DNA of 64,000 nt, taken from positions 1-64,000 of the forward strand of contig CAMCOS010000003.1 of the NCBI GenBank assembly GCA_945876565.1, in the 5' to 3' direction. The position numbers were made by a program, and so were the translations under genes. This document shows positions 5,677-62,548 of the stretch, in pieces; position 1 is the stretch's first letter; each line of letters opens with the position of its first letter. Source of the stretch: Lautropia mirabilis. GTDB lineage: Bacteria > Pseudomonadota > Gammaproteobacteria > Burkholderiales > Burkholderiaceae_B. Below the pieces are notes generated by a model. That model made no database searches. It worked only from the letters and a program-made list of their open reading frames with translations, and had not been told where the DNA came from.

Positions 5677-6265
5677 GCGAAGCCAGCGGATCACGGATGC
5701 GCCAGCCTATGTATTGCAAACCACGGCGTGGCGTGAGACGTCTCTCGTGGTCAAAGTGTTTGCCCGTGATCACGGCATTGTGACATTGGTTGCCAAGGGT
5801 GCCAAGCGCCCTTACTCGGGCTTGCGAGCAGTGCTCATGCCATTTCAGCCGCTGATGCTGTCATGGACTGGTAGCGCGGAAGTTAAAACCCTGATACATG
5901 CTGAAGTGGTGCGCATTCGGCCTTTGCCAGGCGCTGTTCTGATGTCATGCTGGTACATGAATGAGTTGGTGCTCAGGCTACTAGCCAGCGAAGATCCGCA
6001 TCCTGGTCTTTACCAAGCTTATGCCGAGGCAGTCCAAGCCTTGTATGAAGGCCAGTTGGCCGCGCTTGCTTTGCGGCAGTTCGAATGGCGCATGTTGCAA
6101 GAAACAGGCTACGGCTTTGATGGCCCTGAGCCTGACTTTGGCGACCGCAGTCAATCGGGCGGCTTGCGAGAGCAGTTTCAGCAACGGTTGCTCGAGCACG
6201 TGCCAGGTGGTCGTCTGAATAGTCGTGAGGTGATGTTAAGTCTCAGGCGTCTGGCAGACACCTGA
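5669..6265 (+). CDS. recO: DNA repair protein RecO, internally shortened
   Basis: RecO loads RecA onto SSB-coated single strands with RecR. The OB-fold N-terminus (YVLQTTAWRETSLVVKVF, VAKGAKRPYSGL) and the helical middle (MNELVLRLL, ALRQFEWRMLQETGYG) are clear, and the end matches the RecO C-terminal helices (LEHVPGGRLNSREVM). About 40 residues normally found between the LGYG motif and the last helices, the region holding the Cys-containing loop in many homologues, are absent, giving about 198 residues instead of about 240. ATG 5669 (ATGAGTAAG, overlapping the era stop) is preferred; an in-frame GTG at 5657 is possible. Its last 23 bp overlap the convergent adh gene. Confidence 0.88.
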   Translation: MSKRSQRITDAPAYVLQTTAWRETSLVVKVFARDHGIVTLVAKGAKRPYSGLRAVLMPFQPLMLSWTGSAEVKTLIHAEVVRIRPLPGAVLMSCWYMNELVLRLLASEDPHPGLYQAYAEAVQALYEGQLAALALRQFEWRMLQETGYGFDGPEPDFGDRSQSGGLREQFQQRLLEHVPGGRLNSREVMLSLRRLADT

Positions 6266-7378: not shown

Positions 7379-8941
7379 TTAGATGCGCAGTGCGATCAGT
7401 GAAGGGCCCGGCGTGGCAGTTGCTTTCTTGAGTGCCTGCTCAAAGCCCGACAGTGTGTCAGTGGCCATGCCTGGCACGCCGTGCGCTTTGGCCATCGAGA
7501 CCCAGTCAAGTTCAGGCGCATCAAGATCAAGCATGCGGCTGGCATTCACGCCCGGCTCAGGTCCACCCATGTTGTTGAGCTCGCCGCGCAAGATTCGGTA
7601 GGACCGGTTGTCAAATATCACGGCCGTGACATCGAGTTCCTCTCGTGCCATGGTCCAAAGTGATTGAATGGTGTACATGGCACTGCCATCACCGACGAGT
7701 GCGATGACACGGCGACCGGGTGCAGCCACTGCTGCACCCACTGCCGCTGGCAATCCAAACCCAATGGCACCGCCCGTGATATCAATGCAATCGTGTGGTG
7801 CAAAATAGGGCACGCTGTCAGCGAGCAGTCGACCAGAGGTGACTGCTTCATCGACTAAAATGGCATCTTCTGGCAGGGCACGTGCCAAGACCGAGCCAAT
7901 GGTGGCGGGCGTTGGAGGGCCATCTTCATATGAAGGCGTGGACAAGTTGCTTGACAGAAAGGCGGGCTTGGTTTGATTGGCGCTCACCGCATCACACAGT
8001 GCTTGCAAGCTGCCCATCAAGTCGTGGCCCGGCGTGGCCAGCGTGTGTACGGTGCAGTTTTCAGAAATGGTCAGGCGCGGCTTGCCTGGATACGCAAAAA
8101 ACGCCACAGGCACGGTGCTGCCAATCAAGACCAGGTGATCGGCGTCTTTGAGTGCGTTCACGGCAGCGTCCACGGCAAATGGAATCGGATGCACGTTGAT
8201 CCGACCGCGTCCACGTTGCAAGCGCGCACTACGAGGCTCGGACATGAGCTGACAGCCCGTCTTGGCTGCGATTTGACCGGCTAGCCACGTGTGGGTCTGC
8301 ATCAAGGCAGTGCCACCGAGCAACAAAAGAACCCGTTTGGCTGTTTCCGGTTTGCTCAAGAGGGCAGCCACTTGCTCGACTGTTTGTTCAAGCACGGGTG
8401 CGGGTTCTCGGGCTGCCACAAAACTGTACTGGCCAGCATCGGCCGACTCCCAAGCGCAATTGGCCGGCAGAATTAACGATGCAATTCGACCAGGCGCACT
8501 TTTTGCCTGGCTTATGGCCTCGGCCGTGTCCATCGCAGCCTGGGTGGACGACGTGATGGTTCGTACCCAGTTCGACATGGGTCTGGCCACGCCTTCGACG
8601 TCTGAGTTCAAAGGTGCATCGTTGTGGATATGGTCCAGCGCGTGTTGACCAATGACGTTGATAATGCCTGAGCGCGCTTTACGGGCATTGTGCAAGTTAG
8701 CCAGACCATTGCCTAGGCCCGGCCCCAAGTGAAGCAGCGTCGCAGCCGGCTTACCAGCCATTCGGTAGTAGCCGTCGGCAGCACCCGTGACCACCCCTTC
8801 AAATAGTCCCAGCACACAGCGCATCTCGGTAGCCTGGTCCAGCGCTGCCACAAAGTGCATTTCCGAGGTGCCCGGATTAGCGAAACATACGTCAACGCTG
8901 CCAGCCAGTAACGTCTTCACCATGGCTTGCGAACCGTTCAT
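7379..8941 (-). CDS. TPP-dependent enzyme, acetolactate synthase/benzoylformate decarboxylase-like
   Basis: Thiamine-diphosphate enzyme of the IlvB-like family, probably a 2-oxoacid decarboxylase or a related carboligase. The N-terminal pyrimidine-binding domain has FANPGTSE with the activating Glu, and the C-terminal domain has the TPP/Mg motif GDGSAMYTIQSLW...N. ATG 8941 is chosen because GGGAGAGA lies just upstream and the protein then starts exactly at the conserved domain (520 residues); the longer frame to 9217 reads through unrelated sequence. It forms a pair with the adh gene downstream. The 3' remnant of an acyl-CoA dehydrogenase gene lies immediately upstream on the same strand. No IlvH-type small subunit is nearby, so true acetolactate synthase is unlikely. 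Confidence 0.85.
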   Translation of the reverse strand: MNGSQAMVKTLLAGSVDVCFANPGTSEMHFVAALDQATEMRCVLGLFEGVVTGAADGYYRMAGKPAATLLHLGPGLGNGLANLHNARKARSGIINVIGQHALDHIHNDAPLNSDVEGVARPMSNWVRTITSSTQAAMDTAEAISQAKSAPGRIASLILPANCAWESADAGQYSFVAAREPAPVLEQTVEQVAALLSKPETAKRVLLLLGGTALMQTHTWLAGQIAAKTGCQLMSEPRSARLQRGRGRINVHPIPFAVDAAVNALKDADHLVLIGSTVPVAFFAYPGKPRLTISENCTVHTLATPGHDLMGSLQALCDAVSANQTKPAFLSSNLSTPSYEDGPPTPATIGSVLARALPEDAILVDEAVTSGRLLADSVPYFAPHDCIDITGGAIGFGLPAAVGAAVAAPGRRVIALVGDGSAMYTIQSLWTMAREELDVTAVIFDNRSYRILRGELNNMGGPEPGVNASRMLDLDAPELDWVSMAKAHGVPGMATDTLSGFEQALKKATATPGPSLIALRI

Positions 8942-26040: not shown

Positions 26041-26742
26041 ATGGAAAAAGTCTATGCCAGTGCTGCTCAAGCACTTGCCGGTGTGGTCAAGGACGGGCAA
26101 ACCATTGCCGTGGGTGGTTTCGGTCTTTGCGGTATTCCCGAGGCACTGATTGCTGCCTTGCGTGACAGCAAAGTCGGAAATTTGACTTGCATCAGCAACA
26201 ACGCCGGCGTTGATGGTTTTGGTCTTGGCATGCTGCTGCAAACCCGGCAGGTCAAAAAGATGATCGCCTCCTATGTGGGTGAAAACAAAGAGTTTGAGCG
26301 TCAGTACCTGGCTGGCGAGCTTGAGCTTGAATTCACCCCGCAAGGGACCTTGGCTGAAAAGCTGCGCGCCGGTGGTGCGGGCATACCGGCGTTCTACACC
26401 AAAACCGGTGTGGGTACGATCGTGGCCGATGGCAAGGAAACCAAAGAATTTGACGGCCAAACCTACGTGATGGAGCGCTCGCTCGTGCCAGACGTGTCCT
26501 TGGTCAAGGCGTACATTGCGGATCGCAGCGGCAACCTGGTGTTTCGCAAGACAGCGCGTAACTTCAACCCGAACGTGGCCATGGCGGGCAAGATCACGAT
26601 TGCTGAGGTCGAGCGCGTGGTCGACACCGGCGAGCTTGACCCGGACATGGTCCATCTGCCAGGTATTTACGTGCATCGTATTGTGATCAACGACGCCCCG
26701 GAAAAACGCATCGAGCAGCGCACTGTGCGCGCCGCCAAATAA
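26041..26742 (+). CDS. scoA: 3-oxoacid CoA-transferase subunit A
   Basis: Alpha subunit of a class I CoA-transferase, most like succinyl-CoA:3-ketoacid CoA-transferase, which activates acetoacetate. The N-terminus has the [15 protein letters not shown] glycine-rich CoA loop, and [13 protein letters not shown] follows. GAGGAG lies 8 nt before ATG 26041. The B subunit follows 14 nt downstream with its own GGAG. Together with BktB and the BKACE operon elsewhere in the window it could recycle acetoacetate to acetyl-CoA. Exact CoA donor is inferred from family. Confidence 0.93.
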
Positions 26743-26756
26743 AGGAGATAGACATC

Positions 26757-27410
26757 ATGGCATGGACTCGTGATGAAATGGCTGCGCGCGCTGCGCGCGA
26801 ATTGCAGGATGGTTTTTACGTCAACCTGGGTATTGGGTTGCCAACCCTGGTGGCTAACTACGTGCCTGATGGCATGGAGGTGTGGTTACAGTCAGAAAAT
26901 GGTCTGCTTGGTATTGGGCCGTTTCCGACCGAAGATGAAGTTGATCCGGACATGATCAATGCGGGCAAGCAGACCGTCACCACCTTGCCTGGCTCGTCGA
27001 TTTTTTCTTCCGCAGACTCTTTTGCCATGATTCGTGGTGGCAAAATCAATTTGGCTATTTTGGGTGCCATGCAGGTCTCAGAAAAAGGGGACTTGGCCAA
27101 CTGGATGATCCCAGGCAAGATGGTCAAAGGCATGGGCGGTGCCATGGACTTGGTTGCTGGCGTCAGCCGTGTGGTCGTGCTCATGGAGCATGTGGCCAAG
27201 AAAAAAGACGGTACCGAGGACATGAAGTTGTTGCCTCAATGCAACCTGCCGTTGACCGGTGTGGGTGTGGTGGACATTATCATCACCGATTTGGGTGTGA
27301 TGGAAGTCACCTCAGATGGTCTGAAACTGATCGAGTTGGCGCCAGGCGTCACGGTCGATGAGGTTAAGTCCAAGACGCTGGCCAAACTCGATGTGTCGGC
27401 GGTGGCGTAA
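26757..27410 (+). CDS. scoB: 3-oxoacid CoA-transferase subunit B
   Basis: Beta subunit of the CoA-transferase. The catalytic glutamate lies in [10 protein letters not shown] (residues about 43-52), preceded by the [15 protein letters not shown] block, and the C-terminal [10 protein letters not shown] is typical of ScoB/OXCT. The 217-residue length and spacing to scoA are standard. The M24 peptidase gene starts 6 nt after its stop and may be in the same transcript. Confidence 0.94.
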
Positions 27411-50857: not shown

Positions 50858-52039
50858 ATGCGTGAAGTTTGGGTAACAGCCGCCGTCAGAACGGCGGTGG
50901 GTGATTTCGGTGGTTCGTTAAAAGATGTACCGCCAATCGACCTAGGAACCACGGTCGTCAAGGCAGCTCTTGAGAAGAGTGGTGCGCCGGTTGATCAAGT
51001 GGGTCATCTGGCGTTTGGTCATGTGGTTCACACTGAGGCGCGTGACATGTACTTGTCGCGAGTGGTGGCGCTAAATGCTGGTCTGCCGCAGACCACTGCT
51101 GCCTTTAACGTCAACCGTTTATGCGGCTCTGGCTTGCAGGCGATCATTTCAGCGTCGCAGTCAGTCCTGCTTGGTGACACTGAAGTGGCCGTGGCCGGTG
51201 GTGCTGAGGTGATGAGCCGCGGTGGCTATCTGTCTGAAGCCATGCGTTTTGGTGCTCGCATGGGCGACACCAAGGTCACTGACATGATGGTGGCTGCGTT
51301 GACTGACCCGTTTGGTCGCATGCACATGGGTGTGACAGCAGAAAACGTCGCTTCAAAATTTAACATCAGCCGCGAACAGCAGGATGCACTTGCGGTTGAG
51401 TCGCACAAGCGAGCTATCCGCGCTCAGGATGAGGGTCGTTTCAATGATCAAATCGTGCCCGTGGTTATTAAAAGCCGTAAAGGCGACGTGGTGTTTGACA
51501 AAGACGAGCATCCCCGTCGCGATATCAGCGCTGAGAGTCTTGGAAAGCTGCGGGCTGTATTTCAGAAAGAAAACGGCACGGTGACTGCCGGCAACGCATC
51601 CGGCATTAATGACGGGGCGGCTGCGGTGGTTCTCATGAGTGGTGAGGCATTGAAGTCTTCGGGTGCCAAGCCTTTGGCCAAACTGGTTGCTTACGCGCAT
51701 GCAGGTGTTGATCCTGAGATCATGGGCATTGGCCCTGTGCCAGCGTCCGAGCTGGTGCTAAAGCGCGCTGGCTTGACGCTCGACCAAATTGACGTTATCG
51801 AAGCCAATGAGGCATTTGCTGCTCAGGCATGCGCGGTTACTCAAGAGCTTGGGCTTGATCCGGAAAAGGTTAACCCCAATGGCAGTGGCATCTCGCTTGG
51901 GCATCCGATCGGCGCCACAGGTTCGATTGTCACGGTCAAAGCGATCCATGAATTGCACCGCACTGGCGGGCGTTATGCCTTGGTGACGATGTGTATCGGT
52001 GGTGGCCAGGGTATTGCTGCAATTTTTGAGCGCGCCTAG
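50858..52039 (+). CDS. bktB: Beta-ketothiolase (BktB-like acetyl-CoA C-acetyltransferase)
   Basis: Thiolase condensing or cleaving 3-oxoacyl-CoA. Catalytic Cys in NRLCGSG (residue about 90), His in GHPIGATG, and second Cys in CIGGGQG; NEAFAAQ also present. It follows the Cupriavidus BktB pattern from LRDMYL-like ARDMYLSRV through NPNGSGISLGHP to AIFER at the end. AAGGAG lies upstream. BktB supplies 3-ketovaleryl-CoA or acetoacetyl-CoA for polyhydroxyalkanoate or breaks them down; no phaC/phaB in the window. Confidence 0.93.
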   Translation: MREVWVTAAVRTAVGDFGGSLKDVPPIDLGTTVVKAALEKSGAPVDQVGHLAFGHVVHTEARDMYLSRVVALNAGLPQTTAAFNVNRLCGSGLQAIISASQSVLLGDTEVAVAGGAEVMSRGGYLSEAMRFGARMGDTKVTDMMVAALTDPFGRMHMGVTAENVASKFNISREQQDALAVESHKRAIRAQDEGRFNDQIVPVVIKSRKGDVVFDKDEHPRRDISAESLGKLRAVFQKENGTVTAGNASGINDGAAAVVLMSGEALKSSGAKPLAKLVAYAHAGVDPEIMGIGPVPASELVLKRAGLTLDQIDVIEANEAFAAQACAVTQELGLDPEKVNPNGSGISLGHPIGATGSIVTVKAIHELHRTGGRYALVTMCIGGGQGIAAIFERA

Positions 52040-54269: not shown

Positions 54270-55202
54270 TCAGAAATCGACTTGACCCCCGCCTTTTAGC
54301 TGCAAAATCTGTCTGGCTTCATCCGGTGTGGCGATCTCGAGGTTTAGTGCCTCAAGAATGATCCGGATTCGACTGACTTGCTCGGCGTTTGATGAAGCCA
54401 TTTTGCCTGGCTCAATCCAAAGCGAGTCTTCAAGACCGACGCGCACGTTTGACCCCATCGCAGCGCCCATGGTGGCGAGCGGGATCTGGTTGCGTCCGGC
54501 TCCCAGAATAGACCATTGATAGTTGTTGCCAAAGAGTCTGTCTGCCGTGCGACGCATGTGCATCAGGTCTTCGGGATCTGGACCTATTCCGCCCAAAATA
54601 CCAAAAACCGATTGCACAAAAGCCGGGCCCGGGACCAGGCCCTTGTCCATGAAATGCGCCAAGTTGTACAGGTGGCTGATGTCGTAGCACTCAAACTCAA
54701 AACGAGTACCGTTGTCCGAACCCTTTCTGAGAATCGTTTCAATATCGTTGTAGGTGTTCTTAAAAATCAAATCTCGGCTGTTTTCAAGGTGCTCACGCTC
54801 CCATGCATGCTCGAATGACTTGAATCGGTCGAGCATGGGAAATAAACCGAAGTTCATCGAGCCCATGTTTAAAGAAGCGACTTCAGGCTTGAACGTCATG
54901 GCGGGACGCATGCGTTCTTCGACAGTCATGTGGGGGCTGCCACCGGTCGTGATGTTGATGACCGCGTTGGTCTTGGCTTTGATGATTTGCAGGAACGCAC
55001 GAAACAGTGCCGGGTCTTGTGAAGGCTTGCCTGTGATCGGGTCTCTTGCATGCAGGTGCAGGATTGCTGCGCCCGCATTGGCAGCCCCAATTGCGGCATC
55101 GGCGATTTGCTGCGCTGTGACTGGCAATGCCTTGGACATGGATGGGGTGTGGATCGCGCCAGTGACCGCACAAGTGATGATGACTTTACGTTTGATTGCC
55201 AT
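54270..55202 (-). CDS. Beta-keto acid cleavage enzyme (BKACE, DUF849)
   Basis: TIM-barrel zinc enzyme that cleaves a beta-keto acid with acetyl-CoA to acetoacetate and a new CoA ester; the prototype is 3-keto-5-aminohexanoate cleavage enzyme. The N-terminus is KVIITCAVTGAIHTP, the zinc motif HLHARDP follows, then TTGGSPHMTVEERMRP, LNMGSMNFG and the late VRVGLEDSLWI. It is the last gene of the operon 61720-54270, 16 nt after the lambda-crystallin-type dehydrogenase, which would supply the keto acid. The substrate pocket residues cannot be interpreted by eye. BKACEs act in carnitine, lysine and other pathways. Confidence 0.9.
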   Translation of the reverse strand: MAIKRKVIITCAVTGAIHTPSMSKALPVTAQQIADAAIGAANAGAAILHLHARDPITGKPSQDPALFRAFLQIIKAKTNAVINITTGGSPHMTVEERMRPAMTFKPEVASLNMGSMNFGLFPMLDRFKSFEHAWEREHLENSRDLIFKNTYNDIETILRKGSDNGTRFEFECYDISHLYNLAHFMDKGLVPGPAFVQSVFGILGGIGPDPEDLMHMRRTADRLFGNNYQWSILGAGRNQIPLATMGAAMGSNVRVGLEDSLWIEPGKMASSNAEQVSRIRIILEALNLEIATPDEARQILQLKGGGQVDF

Positions 55203-55218
55203 GATGTGTTTTCCCGGA

Positions 55219-56178
55219 TCAAGTGTTGTCAGTGTTGCTGAAGTTCTTCCTGTTGTCGTCGAACTGAAGTTTGTGCCTCATGAGTGCCATTAGGCGCTCA
55301 TCACGCCAGAGACGGCGATTTAAAAGCTCTGCGCTTGGCAATTGCTTGCGCCGCTGCGCATTGGCATCGTCGATGACAGCGTCGCTCCAAGCGTCGGTGT
55401 TGGTTTGTTCAGTTGCAATGCGTTGATACATGCCGCCGTAGCGTTTGCAATAATCTGCCAAGCCGTCGGGGGCGTTTAGATCAATCGTCTCAAATGGGCC
55501 CATGAAAGACCAACGCAAGCCCAGACCATCTTTAATGGTGACGTCAAGATCTTCGACACTCACCACGCCTTGCTCTACTAGCCTAAATGCTTCACGCAAC
55601 AAAGCGCCCTGAAGACGGTTTAAGACGAAACCCTCGACCTCTCGATTAACGGTCACGGGTTTCTGTTTAACAAAGTCCATGAAGTCTCTGGCGCGCTCGA
55701 TCACGCTCGGATCGGTCCAAGGTGCGCCGCACAGTTCAACGACGGGCACAAGGTAGGGTGGATTGACTGGGTGAGCAACCAAACAACGGTTGCGCCCCGG
55801 CAATGTCTCGGTGAATTCCGATGCGGGGATACTTGATGTAGAGCTTGCCAGGATGGTGTCAGGCGCTGCCAGCACGTCCATGCGCTGATACAGGTTGCGC
55901 TTGATCTGAACGTTCTCAGGTAGGTTCTCCTGAACATACTGAACATCAGTCAGCGCGTCTTCGAGCGTTTTGGTGACCGTGATGTTCGACAAAGCGCCTT
56001 GGGCGTCTTGCACCAAGCCATGCGATTGAAGCTCTGTCATCTGCTGGGCAATGATCACAATGGCTTTTTCTAATGCTTGGGTATCGCCATCCCAGAGCTT
56101 TACCTTGCAGCCAGCGCGAGCAAATACAATTGCCCAAGCTTGTCCAATGAGTCCGCTGCCGATTACAGCTGTTTGCAT
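55219..56178 (-). CDS. 3-hydroxyacyl-CoA dehydrogenase-fold enzyme, lambda-crystallin/L-carnitine dehydrogenase-like
   Basis: NAD-dependent beta-hydroxy acid dehydrogenase. Rossmann loop is AVIGSGLIGQAWAIVFA; SSTSSIPASE, VAHPVNPPYLVPVVE (catalytic His) and EGFVLNRLQGALLREAFRLVEQG are the conserved marks. The C-terminal GLGLRWSFMGPFETIDLNAP resembles lambda-crystallin (L-gulonate 3-dehydrogenase) and CdhA carnitine dehydrogenase. Because BKACE needs a beta-keto acid, the likely reaction is oxidation of a free beta-hydroxy acid. A disordered tail (DDNRKNFSNTDNT) ends it. Confidence 0.88.
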   Translation of the reverse strand: MQTAVIGSGLIGQAWAIVFARAGCKVKLWDGDTQALEKAIVIIAQQMTELQSHGLVQDAQGALSNITVTKTLEDALTDVQYVQENLPENVQIKRNLYQRMDVLAAPDTILASSTSSIPASEFTETLPGRNRCLVAHPVNPPYLVPVVELCGAPWTDPSVIERARDFMDFVKQKPVTVNREVEGFVLNRLQGALLREAFRLVEQGVVSVEDLDVTIKDGLGLRWSFMGPFETIDLNAPDGLADYCKRYGGMYQRIATEQTNTDAWSDAVIDDANAQRRKQLPSAELLNRRLWRDERLMALMRHKLQFDDNRKNFSNTDNT

Positions 56179-56195
56179 ATCACTTGCTCCGTTTG

Positions 56196-56978
56196 TTAAA
56201 TCAGCGCTTGCGTATGGCCATCAACCACCAGTTCTTGGCCGGTGATATTGAGCGCTGCATCGCTTGCGGCAAAGAGGGCCATGTTGGCGATGTCTCGGGC
56301 GCTCACCAGGCGGCCAAGCACTGCTTGCTGTTCGTGACGTTTAGCCAACTCATCTTCTGGCACATTGAGTGCCTTGGCCTTCGCTGCAATGACAGCGCGA
56401 ATCCGCGGTCCTTCAACAGCGCCGGGCAAAATGGCGTTTACACGGATCCCGTGTGGACCGAGCTCAATGGCTAATGATTTGGTCAATCCAACCACAGCCC
56501 ATTTCGATGCAGAGTAGGGTGTTCGGCCCGCAAAACCCAGATGCCCAGCTGCCGACGAGAGGTTGAGTATGACACCATGTTTGGATGTCTTAAGCATCGG
56601 TACGGCCTCACGCGCGCAGAGAAATTGGCTGGTGAGGTTCACGTTGATGGTGTGATCCCAGTCTGCTTTATTGATCGTCTCGACAGGCCCTGTCGGGCCT
56701 GCTACACCAGCATTGTTAATGAGCACGTCAAGCCCGCCCAGTTTTTCCTGTGCGAGAGCAAACAGGGACTTTACGCTAGCCTCATCGGCGACGTTTGCCT
56801 CAGTGGTGATCAAGCCTTGCAGCTCTTTGTCTGCAGCTGCTAGCGCTTTCGGGTTGATGTCGCAGATCATCACGCGAGCATTGGCCTCTCTAAAAGCACG
56901 TGCTATTTCCAGGCCGATGCCGCTAGCACCGGCTGTGATGAGCACTCGTCGGTCTTTCATGCTGAATTTGTCAAACAT
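56196..56978 (-). CDS. SDR-family oxidoreductase
   Basis: Classical short-chain dehydrogenase of 260 residues: cofactor loop TAGASGIGLE, NNAGV, catalytic NLSSAAGHLG...YSASKWA, and LPGAVEGPR after the active site. NADH preference is suggested by the acidic DIN following beta-strand 2 (ICDIN). Fourth gene of the catabolic operon, 9 nt after the LivMGF fusion and 17 nt before the lambda-crystallin-type enzyme. It probably oxidises a hydroxyl group of the transported compound. Confidence 0.88.
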   Translation of the reverse strand: MFDKFSMKDRRVLITAGASGIGLEIARAFREANARVMICDINPKALAAADKELQGLITTEANVADEASVKSLFALAQEKLGGLDVLINNAGVAGPTGPVETINKADWDHTINVNLTSQFLCAREAVPMLKTSKHGVILNLSSAAGHLGFAGRTPYSASKWAVVGLTKSLAIELGPHGIRVNAILPGAVEGPRIRAVIAAKAKALNVPEDELAKRHEQQAVLGRLVSARDIANMALFAASDAALNITGQELVVDGHTQALI

Positions 56979-56987
56979 GGTCGGTTC

Positions 56988-59504
56988 TCATATCCAGAGT
57001 TTTTCTTTGCGGAATTCCAAGTCCGTTAACAACTGATAAGCACTGCCTTGATGCGAAACCCGGCCACGATCCAGTACCACCGCAGTGTCAGAGATGGCCA
57101 GCGCCAAATCTAAATTGTGGTCAACGATTAACATCGTTAGTTTGGATTTGAGCGCCAAAATAGCATTGAATACTTCTTCTGTCATGGCCGGCGATAGCCC
57201 TTCGAACGGTTCATCAAGCAGCAGCACCTGTACGTGGCCTGCCAGTGCTCGAGCAATGGCTACCATCTGCTGCTCGCCACCAGAAAGCAATGTGGCATCC
57301 AGAAGGTAGCGCTCCTTCAGGCGCGGGAACACTTTGAAGATCTCTTGGTCTGTCCAGCCATTGTTGCCTAGGCCAGATCGTTTGAGGCGTCCAAGCATGA
57401 GATTGTCTTTGACGGTCAGGCCAGGGAACAGTCGTCTGCCTTGCGGCACGAAGGCAATGCCTAAGCGAGCCATGACTTCAGGCACGGGGGAAGACGTTGT
57501 CGTGCCAGCCAGATCAATTGTTCCCGAACCGAGCCGTGCCAAGCCCAACAGGCTTTTTAGCAAGGTTGACTTACCCGCGCCATTTCTGCCAAGCACAGCA
57601 ATGATCTCGCCTTTGCGCGCCTGAAACGAAATGTCCGTGAGGATATGGCTCTTGCCGTAAAAGGCATTCAAGTCTGAGACTTTCAGTACATAGTCTTCGC
57701 CAAGCCGTGAGGGCTTTACCTTGGCTGCCAGGGCTTGGCTACCTGAGCCGATGTAGATTTCGCGTACGCGGACATCGGTGCGCACCTGCTCGGCTTGGCC
57801 CTCGACCAAAACTTCACCCTGATTCATCACCGTGATCTTATCTGCCATCATGAACACACGGTCAACGTCATGTTCTACAAGCAGCACGCCGATGCGATCG
57901 CCGAGCTTTCGGATGAGTCTTCCGATACGATCTCGTTCAGCCGCAGCTAAACCCGCCAGCGGTTCATCGAGTAGCAGTATCTTTGGGGCAGAACCAAGTG
58001 CGAGGCCCATATCGACGAGTCGTTGCCCACCGTAGGATAGGTCCTCAGCCAGTGCACGCTCCATTCCTTGAACACCGAGATATCTGATTAAATCCTCGGT
58101 CTGGTGCTGTGTCTCTTTAAGCGCAGCCAAGCGGCGTAGCATCGAGAAGCGATGAGGATCTCGGGCCAACACCGACAACTCCAGATTGCCCCGTACCGTC
58201 AGTCCTTTGAACAGGTTGGTGATCTGGAATGAGCGGGATAGGCCTTTGGTGCATATTTTGTTTGGTTGCGCCCCGGCAAGTTCTGCCTGTCCGAGTCGCA
58301 CTGACCCTGAATCGGCCGCAAACATCCCTGAAATGAGGTTGAAAAGTGATGTCTTGCCTGCGCCGTTTGGGCCAATTAAGGCATGCACACCTTGGCCAGC
58401 GACTTCTAGGTTCACACGGGTGACCGCTTTGATGCCGCCGAAACTCTTGGTTATTTCGCGGCATCGCAGCTGCGGTGCATTGTTCGTGACCAGAAACTCA
58501 GGAAAGAAGTCGGGATCAGTTGGCACCATGCGTTGACCCATGGCCGCCCCTGTAATCTTCTCTGGGACAACCAGTCGGTACAAGCGACTGCTTATGCCGA
58601 CTAGGCCCTGTGGCGTAACCAAAATGAAAAACACGAAGATCAGGCCAAAGTAGAGCAACCAGTCATCGGTATACATCGAAAGGTATTCGCGAAAAAGAAT
58701 GTAAAACAGGGCACCAAAGATCGGTCCTGAGAAGCTGCGCATGCCACCAATCAATGCGATGGCCAGAAGCTCCCCTGAAAACATCAGTGACATGGATTCA
58801 GCTGACGCGATTCGGTGTGACAGCACACCAAGCGCACCGGCAAGGCCCGTGATCGTGGCTGAGATGACAAACGCAAGCAGCTTGTAGGACTGCACATTGA
58901 ACCCAATAAAACGAGTGCGCTGTTCATTTTCTCGAATGGCAGTCAGGACATGACCAAATGGTGAGTTGGTCAGCCTTAACAAGAACGTGACAACGATCAG
59001 GGCGATAACGGCGACAAATGCGTAGAAAACGTAGCCATCGTCGAGATTAAGGCCCAGTACTGAGTAGCGTTCGATGCCACCTAGGCCATTTTCGCCGCCA
59101 GTTAGCGCAGTCCAGCGATACGCAACAGCAAAACACAGCGCACCAAAGGCAAGTGTCAATAGCGAAAAGTAAACACCGCGGCGCCTGAGTATCAGTAACC
59201 CAATGATCAGTGCAACACCTGCAACAATCAGTACGGCAGACACCAGGGGTAGCAGTGTTGATCCTTCAAACACCCGAAGCTGCAAAATGCCCATGGCATA
59301 GCCACCGATGCCAAACCAGGCACCATGACCAAAGGAGACTAGACCGGTGTACCCCAGCAAGATATTGAGTGCCAGTCCGGCTAGTGCAAGAACGACACAT
59401 TCAACGGCGGTGCTGTATGTCAATCCGCCCCAGGATAAGATAAATGGCAGCAGGATGAGTCCCACTGCAACAACGCATAGCTTTTTTAGTTCAGTCGATG
59501 ACAT
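56988..59504 (-). CDS. Fused LivM-LivG-LivF branched-chain-type ABC transporter protein
   Basis: One 838-residue chain holds a whole half of a HAAT-family ABC transporter. Residues 1-315 are a LivM-type permease (GLVSFGHGAWFGIGGYAMG). A linker of about 30 residues leads to a LivG ATPase with Walker A GPNGAGKTS (378-386), signature LSYGGQ (489-494) and Walker B ILLLDEP (509-515). The LivF ATPase has Walker A GRNGAGKST (639-647), signature LSGGEQ (740-745) and Walker B LLLDEP (761-766). Normally these are three genes. The frame is intact with no internal ribosome-binding site apparent. LivH is 3 nt upstream. Confidence 0.93.
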   Translation of the reverse strand: MSSTELKKLCVVAVGLILLPFILSWGGLTYSTAVECVVLALAGLALNILLGYTGLVSFGHGAWFGIGGYAMGILQLRVFEGSTLLPLVSAVLIVAGVALIIGLLILRRRGVYFSLLTLAFGALCFAVAYRWTALTGGENGLGGIERYSVLGLNLDDGYVFYAFVAVIALIVVTFLLRLTNSPFGHVLTAIRENEQRTRFIGFNVQSYKLLAFVISATITGLAGALGVLSHRIASAESMSLMFSGELLAIALIGGMRSFSGPIFGALFYILFREYLSMYTDDWLLYFGLIFVFFILVTPQGLVGISSRLYRLVVPEKITGAAMGQRMVPTDPDFFPEFLVTNNAPQLRCREITKSFGGIKAVTRVNLEVAGQGVHALIGPNGAGKTSLFNLISGMFAADSGSVRLGQAELAGAQPNKICTKGLSRSFQITNLFKGLTVRGNLELSVLARDPHRFSMLRRLAALKETQHQTEDLIRYLGVQGMERALAEDLSYGGQRLVDMGLALGSAPKILLLDEPLAGLAAAERDRIGRLIRKLGDRIGVLLVEHDVDRVFMMADKITVMNQGEVLVEGQAEQVRTDVRVREIYIGSGSQALAAKVKPSRLGEDYVLKVSDLNAFYGKSHILTDISFQARKGEIIAVLGRNGAGKSTLLKSLLGLARLGSGTIDLAGTTTSSPVPEVMARLGIAFVPQGRRLFPGLTVKDNLMLGRLKRSGLGNNGWTDQEIFKVFPRLKERYLLDATLLSGGEQQMVAIARALAGHVQVLLLDEPFEGLSPAMTEEVFNAILALKSKLTMLIVDHNLDLALAISDTAVVLDRGRVSHQGSAYQLLTDLEFRKEKLWI

Positions 59505-59507
59505 GTC

Positions 59508-60389
59508 TTACTCCAGGCGTTCGACTCGTTCACCGAGCAAGCCTCGTGGGCGTAGGATGAGAATCAGCAGCATCAGCAGGTATAGCGACGCTTCTGAGGC
59601 TGGTGGAAAGAAATAGGCGGTCAGTCCACGAATGACGCCCACTAGGATTGCGGCCACCACAACGCCCCAAAAACTTCCTAGCCCGCCGATCACAACCACC
59701 ACAAAGGCTGCGGTCAGAATTTCTTGTCCCATGGCTGGCTGGACACCAGTGATTGGCGCCAGTAGTACGCCCGCCAGACCGGCCAGCCCAATGCCCAAGC
59801 CCGCGACAGCTGTCATGATGGGGCTTAAGGAGATGCCCATTGCCCTGACCATGTCGGGATCGTTAATGCCTGCTTTGACAATCTTGCCAAAGGCTGTGCG
59901 ATTGAGCAAAAACCAGGTCGAGGCAACAGCAACCACAGCCACGCCCAGCATGCCAACACGGTAATACGGGTAGAAAAACTCACCGAGCATCAGTTGTCCG
60001 TGTGCGAACTTTGGGACTGCAAATGCCAGGGGCGAGGCACCATAAATCATTCGCAGGGTTTGCTCGATGATCATCGAGAGCGCGAAAGTAAAGAGTAGAC
60101 TCAGCGTGGGATCTGCCTTGTAGAAACGCCGCAAAAACAGGCGTTCAATCACCATGCCGAGTATGGCCACCAAGATGGGTGAGACCACAAAAGCGTAGCC
60201 ATAGTCCATGTATTTGGTTAGCGTGACGATCAAGTAAGCGCCGATGGCATAAAAAGCGCCATGGGCGAGGTTTACCACGCCACCTAGGCTAAAAATAATG
60301 GATAGCCCTAAAGCGATCAGCAGGTAATAACATCCAAGCAACAGGCCGTTGACGACCTGTTGAAACAAAAATATCAGCTCGATGGGCAA
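59508..60389 (-). CDS. LivH-type ABC permease
   Basis: Membrane permease pairing with the LivM part of the fused protein. About eight hydrophobic helices; GLLLGCYYLLIALGLSIIFSLGGVVNLAHG and the EAA-like loop SPIMTAVAGLGIGLAGLAGVLLAP are family marks. 293 residues. Placed 62 nt after the solute-binding protein gene and 3 nt before the fusion gene, so the set is complete: binding protein, LivH, and LivMGF. Confidence 0.92.
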   Translation of the reverse strand: MPIELIFLFQQVVNGLLLGCYYLLIALGLSIIFSLGGVVNLAHGAFYAIGAYLIVTLTKYMDYGYAFVVSPILVAILGMVIERLFLRRFYKADPTLSLLFTFALSMIIEQTLRMIYGASPLAFAVPKFAHGQLMLGEFFYPYYRVGMLGVAVVAVASTWFLLNRTAFGKIVKAGINDPDMVRAMGISLSPIMTAVAGLGIGLAGLAGVLLAPITGVQPAMGQEILTAAFVVVVIGGLGSFWGVVVAAILVGVIRGLTAYFFPPASEASLYLLMLLILILRPRGLLGERVERLE

Positions 60390-60451
60390 GATGATTTCTC
60401 CAGCATTGCGCGGCGCCCCGATGGTGGGGCGCCACTACCGTGATGGCTTGA

Positions 60452-61720
60452 TTACAAGTTACAAACGTTTCCTTCTGCCATCTGTTGCTCCCGAGTGGGT
60501 AACAGGACATCGAGGGGCTCGTTCGGTCCTGGCACTGGTGCGCTGGTCGCCATGAAGTCATTGGGACCATGATTCGGATTCGGATTGGGTTCAATGGTGT
60601 ACATCTCGTAAACCATTTGATGATCCCATGGTCGGAAGTAAGCTTTGCGGTCTCTGAGCGCATCAAACTTCACATCGCCTGCAAGATAATCAATGACCTT
60701 CTCTGCATCGATTGATTTTTGTGCCGTGATTGCCTGTGCAAGAATCTTGATCGCCAAATAGTCGTTGACGGCCTGATTGTCGGGGATTTTGTTCCAGCGT
60801 TTGTTAAAAGCAGCCACAAACGCCTGCGCAGCCGGGACATTGATCTGATGGGTCCAGATGATTGGCCAGATCCCGCTAAATGCGGTTTGGCCAGCGCCCC
60901 ATACACTGCTCATGTTCATGTCAGCACCTGCAAATGGCACCTTGATACCGAACTCGTTGTACTGCTTCACAAAATTGGTGGTCTGATTGCCTGCCAAGTT
61001 GCTCATGACAAGCTCAGGGTTTTGCTGACGAATTTTCAGCATGGCTGCGCTGAACTCTGTGGCGTCAGTCGGAATCATGTCATTGGAAACAAAAATTGCA
61101 CCATTGGCGTCCATGAAGTCTTTGGTGCGCTTAAATAAGTCATGTCCAAACGCATAGTCAGCCGTGAAGGCCATCCAGCGTTTGCCCTGAACCATGTTGC
61201 GCCTGACGAGCTCGCGCCCGACGGTGCGCACGTACATCGTATTTGAGGCTTCAAGGTGAAACATGTAACGGCTGCAGTCCTTTCCGCGCAATTGATCCGA
61301 GTTGCAACCGGTTTGCAGGAAGGGAATCTTGGCACGGGTGGCGACCTGAGAGATGGTCAAGCCAGACGCAGAACTGATTTCACCCACCAGGAAATTGATC
61401 TTGTCGCGTTCGACCATCCGCTGGGCTTTGGTGGTTGCAGTCTGGGGGTTAACGCTGTCCTCGGTTAACAGTTTGATTTGACGACCCAAGATCCCGCCTT
61501 TTGCATTGACTTCTTCGACGGCGAGGGTAACGCCCATAAAGGCATATTCACCCATGGGTCCCAAGAACCCCGTTCTTGGCGTCAGGTGACCGATGATGAT
61601 TGGTTGTTCACCTTGCGCGCGTACAAAGGCGGGCATGGCTAGTCCGGCTGCTAGCGCAGCAGAGCCTTGAAGTATGGTTCGCCGATTTGGCGATTGCACA
61701 GTCTGATGCTTGGTTTTCAT
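60452..61720 (-). CDS. Tat-exported LivK-type solute-binding protein
   Basis: Periplasmic binding protein of the branched-chain amino acid (HAAT) family, peripla_BP_6 fold. Starts with a twin-arginine signal peptide (NRRTILQGSAALAAG, cleavage near FVRAQ). The mature part begins IIIGHLTPRTGFLGPMGEY. ATG 61720 has GAGGAGA 6 nt upstream and leaves this signal peptide at the N-terminus (422 residues); the frame open to 61777 is upstream leader. Binding specificity unknown: HAAT proteins bind amino acids, aromatic acids, urea and others. Confidence 0.9.
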   Translation of the reverse strand: MKTKHQTVQSPNRRTILQGSAALAAGLAMPAFVRAQGEQPIIIGHLTPRTGFLGPMGEYAFMGVTLAVEEVNAKGGILGRQIKLLTEDSVNPQTATTKAQRMVERDKINFLVGEISSASGLTISQVATRAKIPFLQTGCNSDQLRGKDCSRYMFHLEASNTMYVRTVGRELVRRNMVQGKRWMAFTADYAFGHDLFKRTKDFMDANGAIFVSNDMIPTDATEFSAAMLKIRQQNPELVMSNLAGNQTTNFVKQYNEFGIKVPFAGADMNMSSVWGAGQTAFSGIWPIIWTHQINVPAAQAFVAAFNKRWNKIPDNQAVNDYLAIKILAQAITAQKSIDAEKVIDYLAGDVKFDALRDRKAYFRPWDHQMVYEMYTIEPNPNPNHGPNDFMATSAPVPGPNEPLDVLLPTREQQMAEGNVCNL

Positions 61721-61825
61721 TGAAGGTCTCCTCGGTTTTTTGTGTTGATGCACTACACTTGCTGCGGTAGTGTTCATATACTATTCACTGTGATCACAGA
61801 TCACATTAAGTGTTAACCCTTATTT
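61721..61825. promoter_or_regulatory. Divergent promoter/operator region of the transporter operon and gntR
   Basis: The 105 bp between the two starts contain a perfect 12-bp palindrome ctgtgatcacag (61788-61799), followed at once by a second gatcaca, and an IR cactac...gtagtg (61751-61756, 61767-61772). These are candidates for binding the adjacent GntR protein. Confidence 0.5.
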
Positions 61826-62548
61826 ATGCATATGAATGTTTCGTTGCTCAATCCGGCCCCCAGACGCGAGACCTTAGGCGCTAACGTATTGGCGCAAATT
61901 AAGGAGCTATTGCTGACTGGTCAGTTAATGCCTGGCGAGAGTCTGTCGCTTAGGTCTACTGCAGAGGCCCTCGGGGTGAGTGTGATGCCCGTTCGGGAAG
62001 CGGTCTATCAGCTGGTTGCTGATCAGGCATTAGAAGTTGCGCCGAACAAGTCAGTGCGAGTGCCGCAACTGTCTGCCGAGCAGTTTGTGGAAATTACGCG
62101 CATTCGCTTGGAAATTGAGGGGTTCGCGGCTGCGCAAGCTGCCCCAAACGTGAGCACCGAATTCATTGAGTCACTGCGGGCTTTAAATGGTCGATTATCG
62201 GCGGCGATGGATCAGGCAGGTAGCAAAGTTGACGCCGTGCGACTGAACAAAGAGCTGCACTTTTCTATTTACGCGGCGGCACAGATGCCGATGCTCATTA
62301 AGATTATTGAGACCATGTGGCTCAGAATCGGCCCGATATTGAATTACGATTTGCGCGTGGGCTCAGAGCGTACTGTCAAGAAAATTGCAGTTAAGCATCA
62401 TGATGATTTGATTACCGCACTTCAGGCGAAGGATTCGGCAGCGGCTCGAGCAGCGCTTTGTGGGGATATAGAAAGCGCCTTTCAGTCTATCTACCAAAAG
62501 CAATTTGGCTCTTCGTCATTAAGCGCACAAAAAGAAACATCTGCTTGA
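61826..62548 (+). CDS. GntR/FCD transcriptional regulator
   Basis: FadR-subfamily repressor or activator. The N-terminal winged helix (LGANVLAQIKELLLTGQLMPGESLSLRS..., with GVSVMPVREAVYQLV as recognition helix) joins an all-helical FCD effector domain whose metal-type ligands include D/H residues in RLNKELHFSIY and KHHDDLITAL. 240 residues. Divergent from the transporter operon, hence its likely regulator, responding to a carboxylate from that pathway. Confidence 0.9.
   Translation: MHMNVSLLNPAPRRETLGANVLAQIKELLLTGQLMPGESLSLRSTAEALGVSVMPVREAVYQLVADQALEVAPNKSVRVPQLSAEQFVEITRIRLEIEGFAAAQAAPNVSTEFIESLRALNGRLSAAMDQAGSKVDAVRLNKELHFSIYAAAQMPMLIKIIETMWLRIGPILNYDLRVGSERTVKKIAVKHHDDLITALQAKDSAAARAALCGDIESAFQSIYQKQFGSSSLSAQKETSA

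Follow-up and report, generated by a model that had tools for sequence, protein, structure and literature searches.

A predicted operon for the probable uptake and cleavage of a 2-deoxyaldonate, with two dehydrogenases, in Lautropia mirabilis

The window analysed here is a stretch of 64,000 nucleotides from Lautropia mirabilis (contig CAMCOS010000003.1). At positions 54270-62548 it carries six minus-strand genes in tight series, one of them for a beta-keto acid cleavage enzyme (BKACE), and one divergent gene for an FCD-GntR regulator. Judged by homology, the six genes on balance appear to import a 2-deoxyaldonate, most probably 2-deoxy-D-ribonate, to oxidise it at C3 and to split the product with the BKACE. 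This reading is preferred because the operator, the short-chain dehydrogenase/reductase (SDR) and the BKACE are homologous to those of a genetically tested pathway. A first-pass annotation of the same DNA had proposed uptake, beta-hydroxy-acid oxidation and BKACE cleavage, which the sequence comparisons support. It had left the substrate without a name; on this point we depart from it, as the SDR, the BKACE, the regulator and the operator align with those of the published deoxyribonate pathway.

The intergenic gaps within the six-gene series are 62, 3, 9, 17 and 16 nt, in keeping with the one operon that the series is predicted to form. All seven genes lie where they had first been placed (gene calls, Pfam), and the HAAT-type importer, the SDR, the lambda-crystallin-type dehydrogenase and the BKACE are confirmed. 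Only the start of the binding-protein gene was moved, from 61777 to 61720. The host genome (2.82 Mb, 89 contigs, 100% complete by the completeness tool) contains no other BKACE. The features are listed below; L281 is a Pseudomonas-type locus and L227 another of the loci compared.

54270..55202, minus strand: BKACE; PF05853 362.1 bits; 70% identical to the L281 BKACE; catalytic glutamate strand RFEFECYD kept
55219..56178, minus strand: lambda-crystallin-type dehydrogenase of the 3HCDH family, predicted for the opposite C3 epimer; NF004783 448.8 bits (cut-off 347); closest solved chains are lambda-crystallins
56196..56978, minus strand: SDR, predicted 2-deoxyaldonate 3-dehydrogenase; 52% identical to the L281 SDR; in one clade of 117 SDRs
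56988..59504, minus strand: LivM-LivG-LivF fusion of 838 residues; BPD_transp_2 and two ABC_tran stretches
59508..60389, minus strand: LivH-type permease; BPD_transp_2
60452..61720, minus strand: HAAT-type binding protein with Tat-type signal; Peripla_BP_6 243 bits; TAT_signal 21.1 bits; start from homologue lengths and ribosome site
61790..61797, no strand: predicted operator GTGATCAC (extended form TGTGATCACAGATCACA); exact published motif; flank score 15.0
61826..62548, plus strand: divergent FCD-GntR regulator; Pfam GntR and FCD; 35% identical to the L281 GntR and 54% to the L227 GntR

Kinship with the deoxyribonate pathway

The pathway in question is that of Pseudomonas simiae (PS417_07240-07265), described by Price et al. 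2019 (PMC6365646). Mutant fitness ties an SDR, a BKACE, a lactonase, two MFS carriers and a glycerate kinase to growth on deoxyribose and/or deoxyribonate. The SDR was assayed on deoxyribonate, cleavage to glyceryl-CoA is the authors' proposal, and the lactonase is mainly needed for deoxyribose. The window shares with this cluster a GntR regulator with a GTGATCAC operator, an SDR and a BKACE, together with the proposed C3 oxidation followed by cleavage. It differs in having a HAAT ABC importer where P. simiae has two MFS carriers, in lacking a lactonase in the operon and in having an extra lambda-crystallin-type dehydrogenase.

A BKACE at E <= 1e-100 is present in 31 of the 199 genomes compared from a genus inferred to be Pseudomonas, and in 18 of the 31 it is 66-70% identical to the window BKACE. 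Eight of the 18 loci were fetched. Six (L281-L286) have the order GntR-SDR-BKACE-SMP30-MFS-MFS, as in P. simiae. The second MFS gene is missing from L287, and L288 is rearranged and contains a 3HCDH gene. In L281, the first base of GTGATCAC lies 47 nt ahead of the called start of GntR; the operator position given in the literature is -47 to -40 (PMC6365646). The comparison of BKACE neighbourhoods that the first-pass annotation had called for thus brought up these deoxyribonate-order kin.

The loci compared comprise 80 from named genomes, 5 plasmid loci and 60 regions centred on a BKACE or a 3HCDH gene (20 + 20 + 20), followed by 6 and then 14 more. They were picked by similarity to the window proteins and include duplicates (identical rows L029/L157, L076/L226 and L025/L027). 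In a FastTree tree of 163 BKACEs with at least 50% identity and more than 270 residues, the window sequence falls into a clade of 131 rows with a support of 99. The clade includes the Pseudomonas clusters, clusters with a CUT2 importer and a lactonase, and clusters with a glycerate kinase; the BKACEs of the AraC-type and carnitine-like loci are placed outside it. Eight motif strands were compared, in which the choice of residues that contact the substrate is our assumption. In these strands the window BKACE hardly differs from that of L281, and it keeps the catalytic glutamate strand; that of the carnitine-like locus L246 diverges more, with changes such as Ser to Met, Gly to Ala and Arg to Lys. 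The 117 SDRs at least 45% identical to the window SDR make up a single clade, apart from 38 other SDR rows; this is partly by construction, because the 117 were picked at that identity.

L164, with HAAT, SDR and 3HCDH genes and no BKACE found in the stretch, was left out of the tree; an in-frame TAA is reported inside its 3HCDH match, and it is perhaps a decaying copy. L012, L015, L016 and L018 have BKACEs that are 81-82% identical to that of the window in a different, shared neighbourhood, and no SDR or 3HCDH gene nearby. Either these enzymes have another use or the dehydrogenases are encoded elsewhere.

Two further systems resemble the window. The cluster of Paraburkholderia bryophila and Burkholderia phytofirmans (PMC6365646) likewise keeps SDR, BKACE and transporter genes together. 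AraC adjoins the BKACE in seven loci fetched from the genus to which a named Paraburkholderia (L044) belongs. Five of them (L149, L151-L154) have the gene order published for P. bryophila, and the extra SDR is missing from L143 and L156. The five differ from the window in their AraC regulator, MFS-type carrier and second SDR, and in a BKACE from another clade; in L149, L152 and L153 the BKACE is 59% and the SDR 50-52% identical to those of the window. By sequence, the Caballeronia grimmiae locus L082 (GntR-SDR-BKACE-lactonase-CUT2-3HCDH-SMP30) has GntR, SDR, 3HCDH and BKACE in common with the window, the BKACE being 76% identical, and differs in its CUT2 sugar-type importer and its two lactonase-family genes.

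Only two copies of GTGATCAC occur in the window, one at 5766, inside a reading frame, and one at 61790-61797, between the GntR gene and the corrected start of the binding-protein gene. In the 360 nt around the GntR start, the 8-mer is present in 46 of 64 BKACE-linked clusters, compared with 20 of 1947 other genes. With the later loci included, an intergenic copy was found in the fetched stretches of 56 of the 72 clade rows with a GntR homologue nearby and of one of the 59 rows without.

The 8-mer alone is insufficient, because a second FCD-GntR locus of the host genome also has TGTGATCACA. There are four copies of TGTGATCACA in the genome, and two of them belong to that locus (L233 on contig C45, positions 464-471 and 7831-7838). 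The regulator there, with TGTGATCACA upstream, is 33% identical to that of the window and adjoins amidohydrolase, mandelate-racemase-like and ABC importer genes, so more than one regulator of the host genome makes use of the 8-mer. Six FCD genes are present, two with the 8-mer upstream in the stretches fetched. The flanking bases were therefore scored with a matrix of the 8 + 8 bases beside the core only, the window site and each training site being left out of their own matrix. The window site, in whose choice the flanks had played no part, scores 15.0 and so fits the 54 other cluster operators, and the 55 training sites score from -1.5 to 19.2, two of them below zero. Six other copies of the 8-mer read from the host genome score from 1.3 to -20.7, and the flank test separates the window site from them.

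Further high-scoring sites precede the SDR gene in L009, L013, L019 (by position only) and L288, and the 3HCDH gene in L288. For this reason, both dehydrogenases and the BKACE appear to belong to one regulon. L009 has one operator before SDR-3HCDH-BKACE and another before a sugar importer-lactonase unit, and in L288 an operator lies directly ahead of 3HCDH-BKACE.

Partner genes and the length of the substrate

Recurrent partners of the BKACE are the SDR, the lambda-crystallin-type 3HCDH, GntR and one of several importers. Genes were taken from codon-usage calls, and a partner was counted only within 9.5 kb and as a member of a labelled cluster; absences therefore partly reflect labels and short contigs. 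In the 131-row clade, 15 rows have a window-type HAAT importer, 11 another HAAT type, 14 a CUT2 sugar-type ABC importer, 39 an MFS carrier and 52 none or another. The binding protein, LivMGF, SDR and 3HCDH are found near the BKACE in 15 of the 163 rows, window included, and this combination is more than chance. The SDR gene lies on the other side of GntR in L061 and L228-L231, and L056 is rearranged. Candidimonas sp. SYP-B2681 (L008) and Sheuella amnicola (L003) are examples of relatives with the window's operon.

Genes of the SMP-30/gluconolactonase type are present in 22 of the 131 clade rows (two members tested, Pfam SGL), and a glycerate kinase in five, all Arthrobacter (one member tested, TIGR00045). 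A lactonase, a sugar-type ABC importer or a glycerate kinase in related clusters points to a 2-deoxyaldonate. The host genome encodes a glycerate kinase elsewhere (PF02595, contig C7, 491 bits).

Several observations weigh against this assignment. The seven window genes include no lactonase and no MFS carrier, and a MOFRL-type glycerate kinase is absent from the host genome. The similarity of the SDR (52%) and the GntR (35%) to their L281 counterparts is moderate, and the link to P. simiae runs via gene order and operator position, not via the P. simiae proteins themselves. The P. bryophila-order BKACE, the second tested type, is 59% identical and lies outside the 131-row clade. The 8-mer was found in the fetched stretches of 10 of the 15 HAAT clusters and is missing from the other five, and it is common to another FCD-GntR of the host genome and to AkgR, for which the same motif was noted (PMC6365646). 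Finally, 20 of the 131 clade clusters have neither dehydrogenase and some stand in unrelated neighbourhoods, so the kinship of the BKACE is by itself not enough to settle the substrate.

The same logic could apply to an acid of another chain length, either C4 3,4-dihydroxybutyrate (2-deoxytetronate), which would give glycolyl-CoA and acetoacetate, or a C6 2-deoxyhexonate. We regard this as unlikely, though with appreciable weight. The importer is unlike the MFS carriers of the tested pathway, and BKACE15, a relative, accepts several short beta-keto acids. In six loci (L168, L170, L172, L174, L175 and L177) a tartrate-dehydrogenase-type gene (TIGR02089, 555.9 bits) follows the BKACE gene, which hints at C3-C4 hydroxy acids there. 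A C5 acid is nevertheless favoured by the linkage to glycerate kinase in five clusters and by the kinship to deoxyribonate-order clusters. Most other genes beside the HAAT clusters of the Burkholderiales loci L168-L179, read for pathway hints, look housekeeping (presumably TsaB, RimI, uracil-DNA glycosylase and LemA).

Two dehydrogenases and one cleavage enzyme

The clade of 131 BKACEs contains 46 clusters with the SDR only, 10 with the 3HCDH only, 55 with both and 20 with neither. The first-pass annotation had the acid oxidised once or twice; because SDR-only and 3HCDH-only clusters exist, the enzymes are better read as two alternative 3-dehydrogenases. The window 3HCDH has as its best solved chain 3ado (235.6 bits), and its nearest solved relatives are lambda-crystallins. 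It groups with the enzymes of L008, L038 and L163.

Lambda-crystallins are known as L-gulonate 3-dehydrogenases. The C3 hydroxyl of L-gulonate is L-configured, and that of 2-deoxy-D-ribonate is D-configured. From the kinship to lambda-crystallins and this stereochemistry, we propose that the 3HCDH would oxidise the opposite C3 epimer from the SDR, so that two stereoisomers converge on the BKACE. The proposal fits the occurrence of SDR-only, 3HCDH-only and two-enzyme clusters, and the way in which the 3HCDH tracks ABC importers. Among the 89 of 163 rows with a dehydrogenase and a classed importer, the 3HCDH is present in 38 of 40 rows with ABC importers and in 1 of 49 with MFS carriers. Fisher's test gives a p of about 1e-21 with ancestry ignored. 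A tree-aware test finds three independent pairs on supported branches, of which 2.2 on average go in the same direction and none in the opposite one, and it cannot reach 0.05; the link is a pattern for which no significance is claimed. Only tentatively do we suggest a two-handed system for scavenging deoxy-sugar acids. In it, a high-affinity ABC importer would supply two enzymes with opposite stereospecificity at C3, the SDR and the lambda-crystallin-type dehydrogenase, which would turn both C3 epimers of 2-deoxyaldonates, such as oxidised DNA sugar, into one 3-keto acid for one BKACE. It counts against the suggestion that the opposite-hand role rests on fold kinship and stereochemical reasoning.

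With a 2-deoxyaldonate still as the substrate, the 3HCDH may be no stereo-partner of the SDR; its target may be a CoA ester, a different carbon atom or a separate hydroxy acid. The annotation attached to NF004783 is that of a 3-hydroxyacyl-CoA dehydrogenase family, and a CoA-linked deoxyribonate route exists in Klebsiella (PMC6365646). The closest solved relatives are lambda-crystallins and not CoA enzymes, however, 10 of the 131 clusters combine the 3HCDH and the BKACE without an SDR, and the L288 operator stands directly ahead of 3HCDH-BKACE. These findings make such a role improbable.

Sequential oxidation has a slightly smaller chance still. Here SDR and 3HCDH would convert 3,5-dihydroxyhexanoate (or a hydroxy-oxo-hexanoate) into triacetate, which the BKACE would cleave into acetoacetate and acetoacetyl-CoA. 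This was at first favoured, as the window BKACE matches the NCBIfam model NF053538, '3,5-dioxohexanoate:acetyl-CoA acetone transferase', with 559.6 bits (cut-off 430). In the triacetate branch of phloroglucinol degradation of Clostridium scatologenes, a 3HCDH-family enzyme likewise acts on a free 3-hydroxy acid and makes triacetate, which a BKACE then cleaves; that branch differs in its substrate, 3-hydroxy-5-oxohexanoate, in its gene cluster and in belonging to an anaerobe (PMC10470551). The reading was demoted because NF053538 is also passed by BKACEs of three other contexts, namely deoxyribonate-order L281 (542.3 bits), AraC-type L149 (509.8) and carnitine-like L246 (499.3), so that the model's name says little about the natural substrate. 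Clusters with only one of the dehydrogenases also speak against it, and it leaves no place for the lactonase, the sugar importer and the glycerate kinase as partners.

Carnitine clusters are known to combine a BKACE and a CdhA-like dehydrogenase, and L246-L249 look like such clusters. Carnitine or a carnitine-like betaine is nevertheless a very improbable substrate of the window operon, and the first-pass annotation too had argued for another substrate. Model scores, position in the trees and sequence identity led to its rejection: the carnitine-dehydrogenase models reach 196.7 (cut-off 592) and 177.5 bits (cut-off 414), and BKACE (57% identical to that of L246) and dehydrogenase (35%) fall in other clades. 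The four loci are Pseudomonas-type and, from their gene content, presumably carnitine/betaine clusters. They contain a Rieske oxygenase (Pfam, L246), SDRs and an aldehyde-dehydrogenase-like gene. Their BKACEs show 56-57% identity, and a 3HCDH of 36-37% is labelled in three of the four.

Importer and proposed pathway

The start of the binding-protein gene is probably the ATG at 61720, giving 422 residues, since GAGGAGA lies upstream and the six closest homologues have 422-423 residues. After this correction the control region is 61721-61825. The TAT_signal match of 21.1 bits is slightly below the cut-off of 22.7.

The stretch 56988-60389 holds an annotation trap. The ATPase parts of the LivMGF fusion pass the NCBIfam urea models UrtD (307.2 bits, cut-off 304.1) and UrtE (310.9, cut-off 285.8), whereas the binding protein fails UrtA (95.3, cut-off 492.75) and the permease fails UrtB (192.3, cut-off 250.3). 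These two failures speak against a urea ABC transporter. Between the binding-protein gene and livH, at 60412-60433, there is a perfect 8-bp inverted repeat (GGCGCCCC / GGGGCGCC) with a 6-nt loop and without an obvious T-run, which possibly lowers importer expression relative to the binding protein.

In the 2-deoxyaldonate pathway proposed for the operon, the exported binding protein with LivH and LivMGF would import the acid under control of GntR, which is predicted to act through the palindrome at 61790-61797. The SDR, by homology to the P. simiae deoxyribonate dehydrogenase, would use NAD to convert the D-configured C3 hydroxyl into the 3-keto acid, and the lambda-crystallin-type enzyme may form the same 3-keto acid from the L-configured C3 epimer. 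By family chemistry, BKACE and acetyl-CoA would then yield acetoacetate and, if the acid is C5, glyceryl-CoA. Glyceryl-CoA would yield glycerate, which would meet the glycerate kinase encoded elsewhere. The glyceryl-CoA hydrolase of the deoxyribonate pathway is stated to be unknown in PMC9007349, and there is no candidate for it among the operon's genes. Acetoacetate would return to acetyl-CoA through ScoAB and a thiolase. ScoAB (26041-27410) and BktB (50858-52039) are both in the window, and their use, suggested earlier, is possible; regulation lends it no support, the 8-mer scan of the window having found no operator beside either.

The core pathway is published and each part is of a known family, so the operon is a variant. 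A literature search, with most subscription papers outside it, found no description of a HAAT-importing or lambda-crystallin-containing version of the deoxyribonate pathway. Read in this way, the operon would carry the published pathway over to bacteria with ABC importers, and it allows a direct test of whether two stereo-complementary dehydrogenases serve a single cleavage enzyme. If the two-handed reading is true, importer class, ABC or MFS, would predict whether both epimers or one are eaten. As deoxyribonate is proposed to stem from DNA sugar that has been oxidised or damaged (discussion of PMC6365646), the operon would bear on the bacterial recycling of the sugar of DNA.

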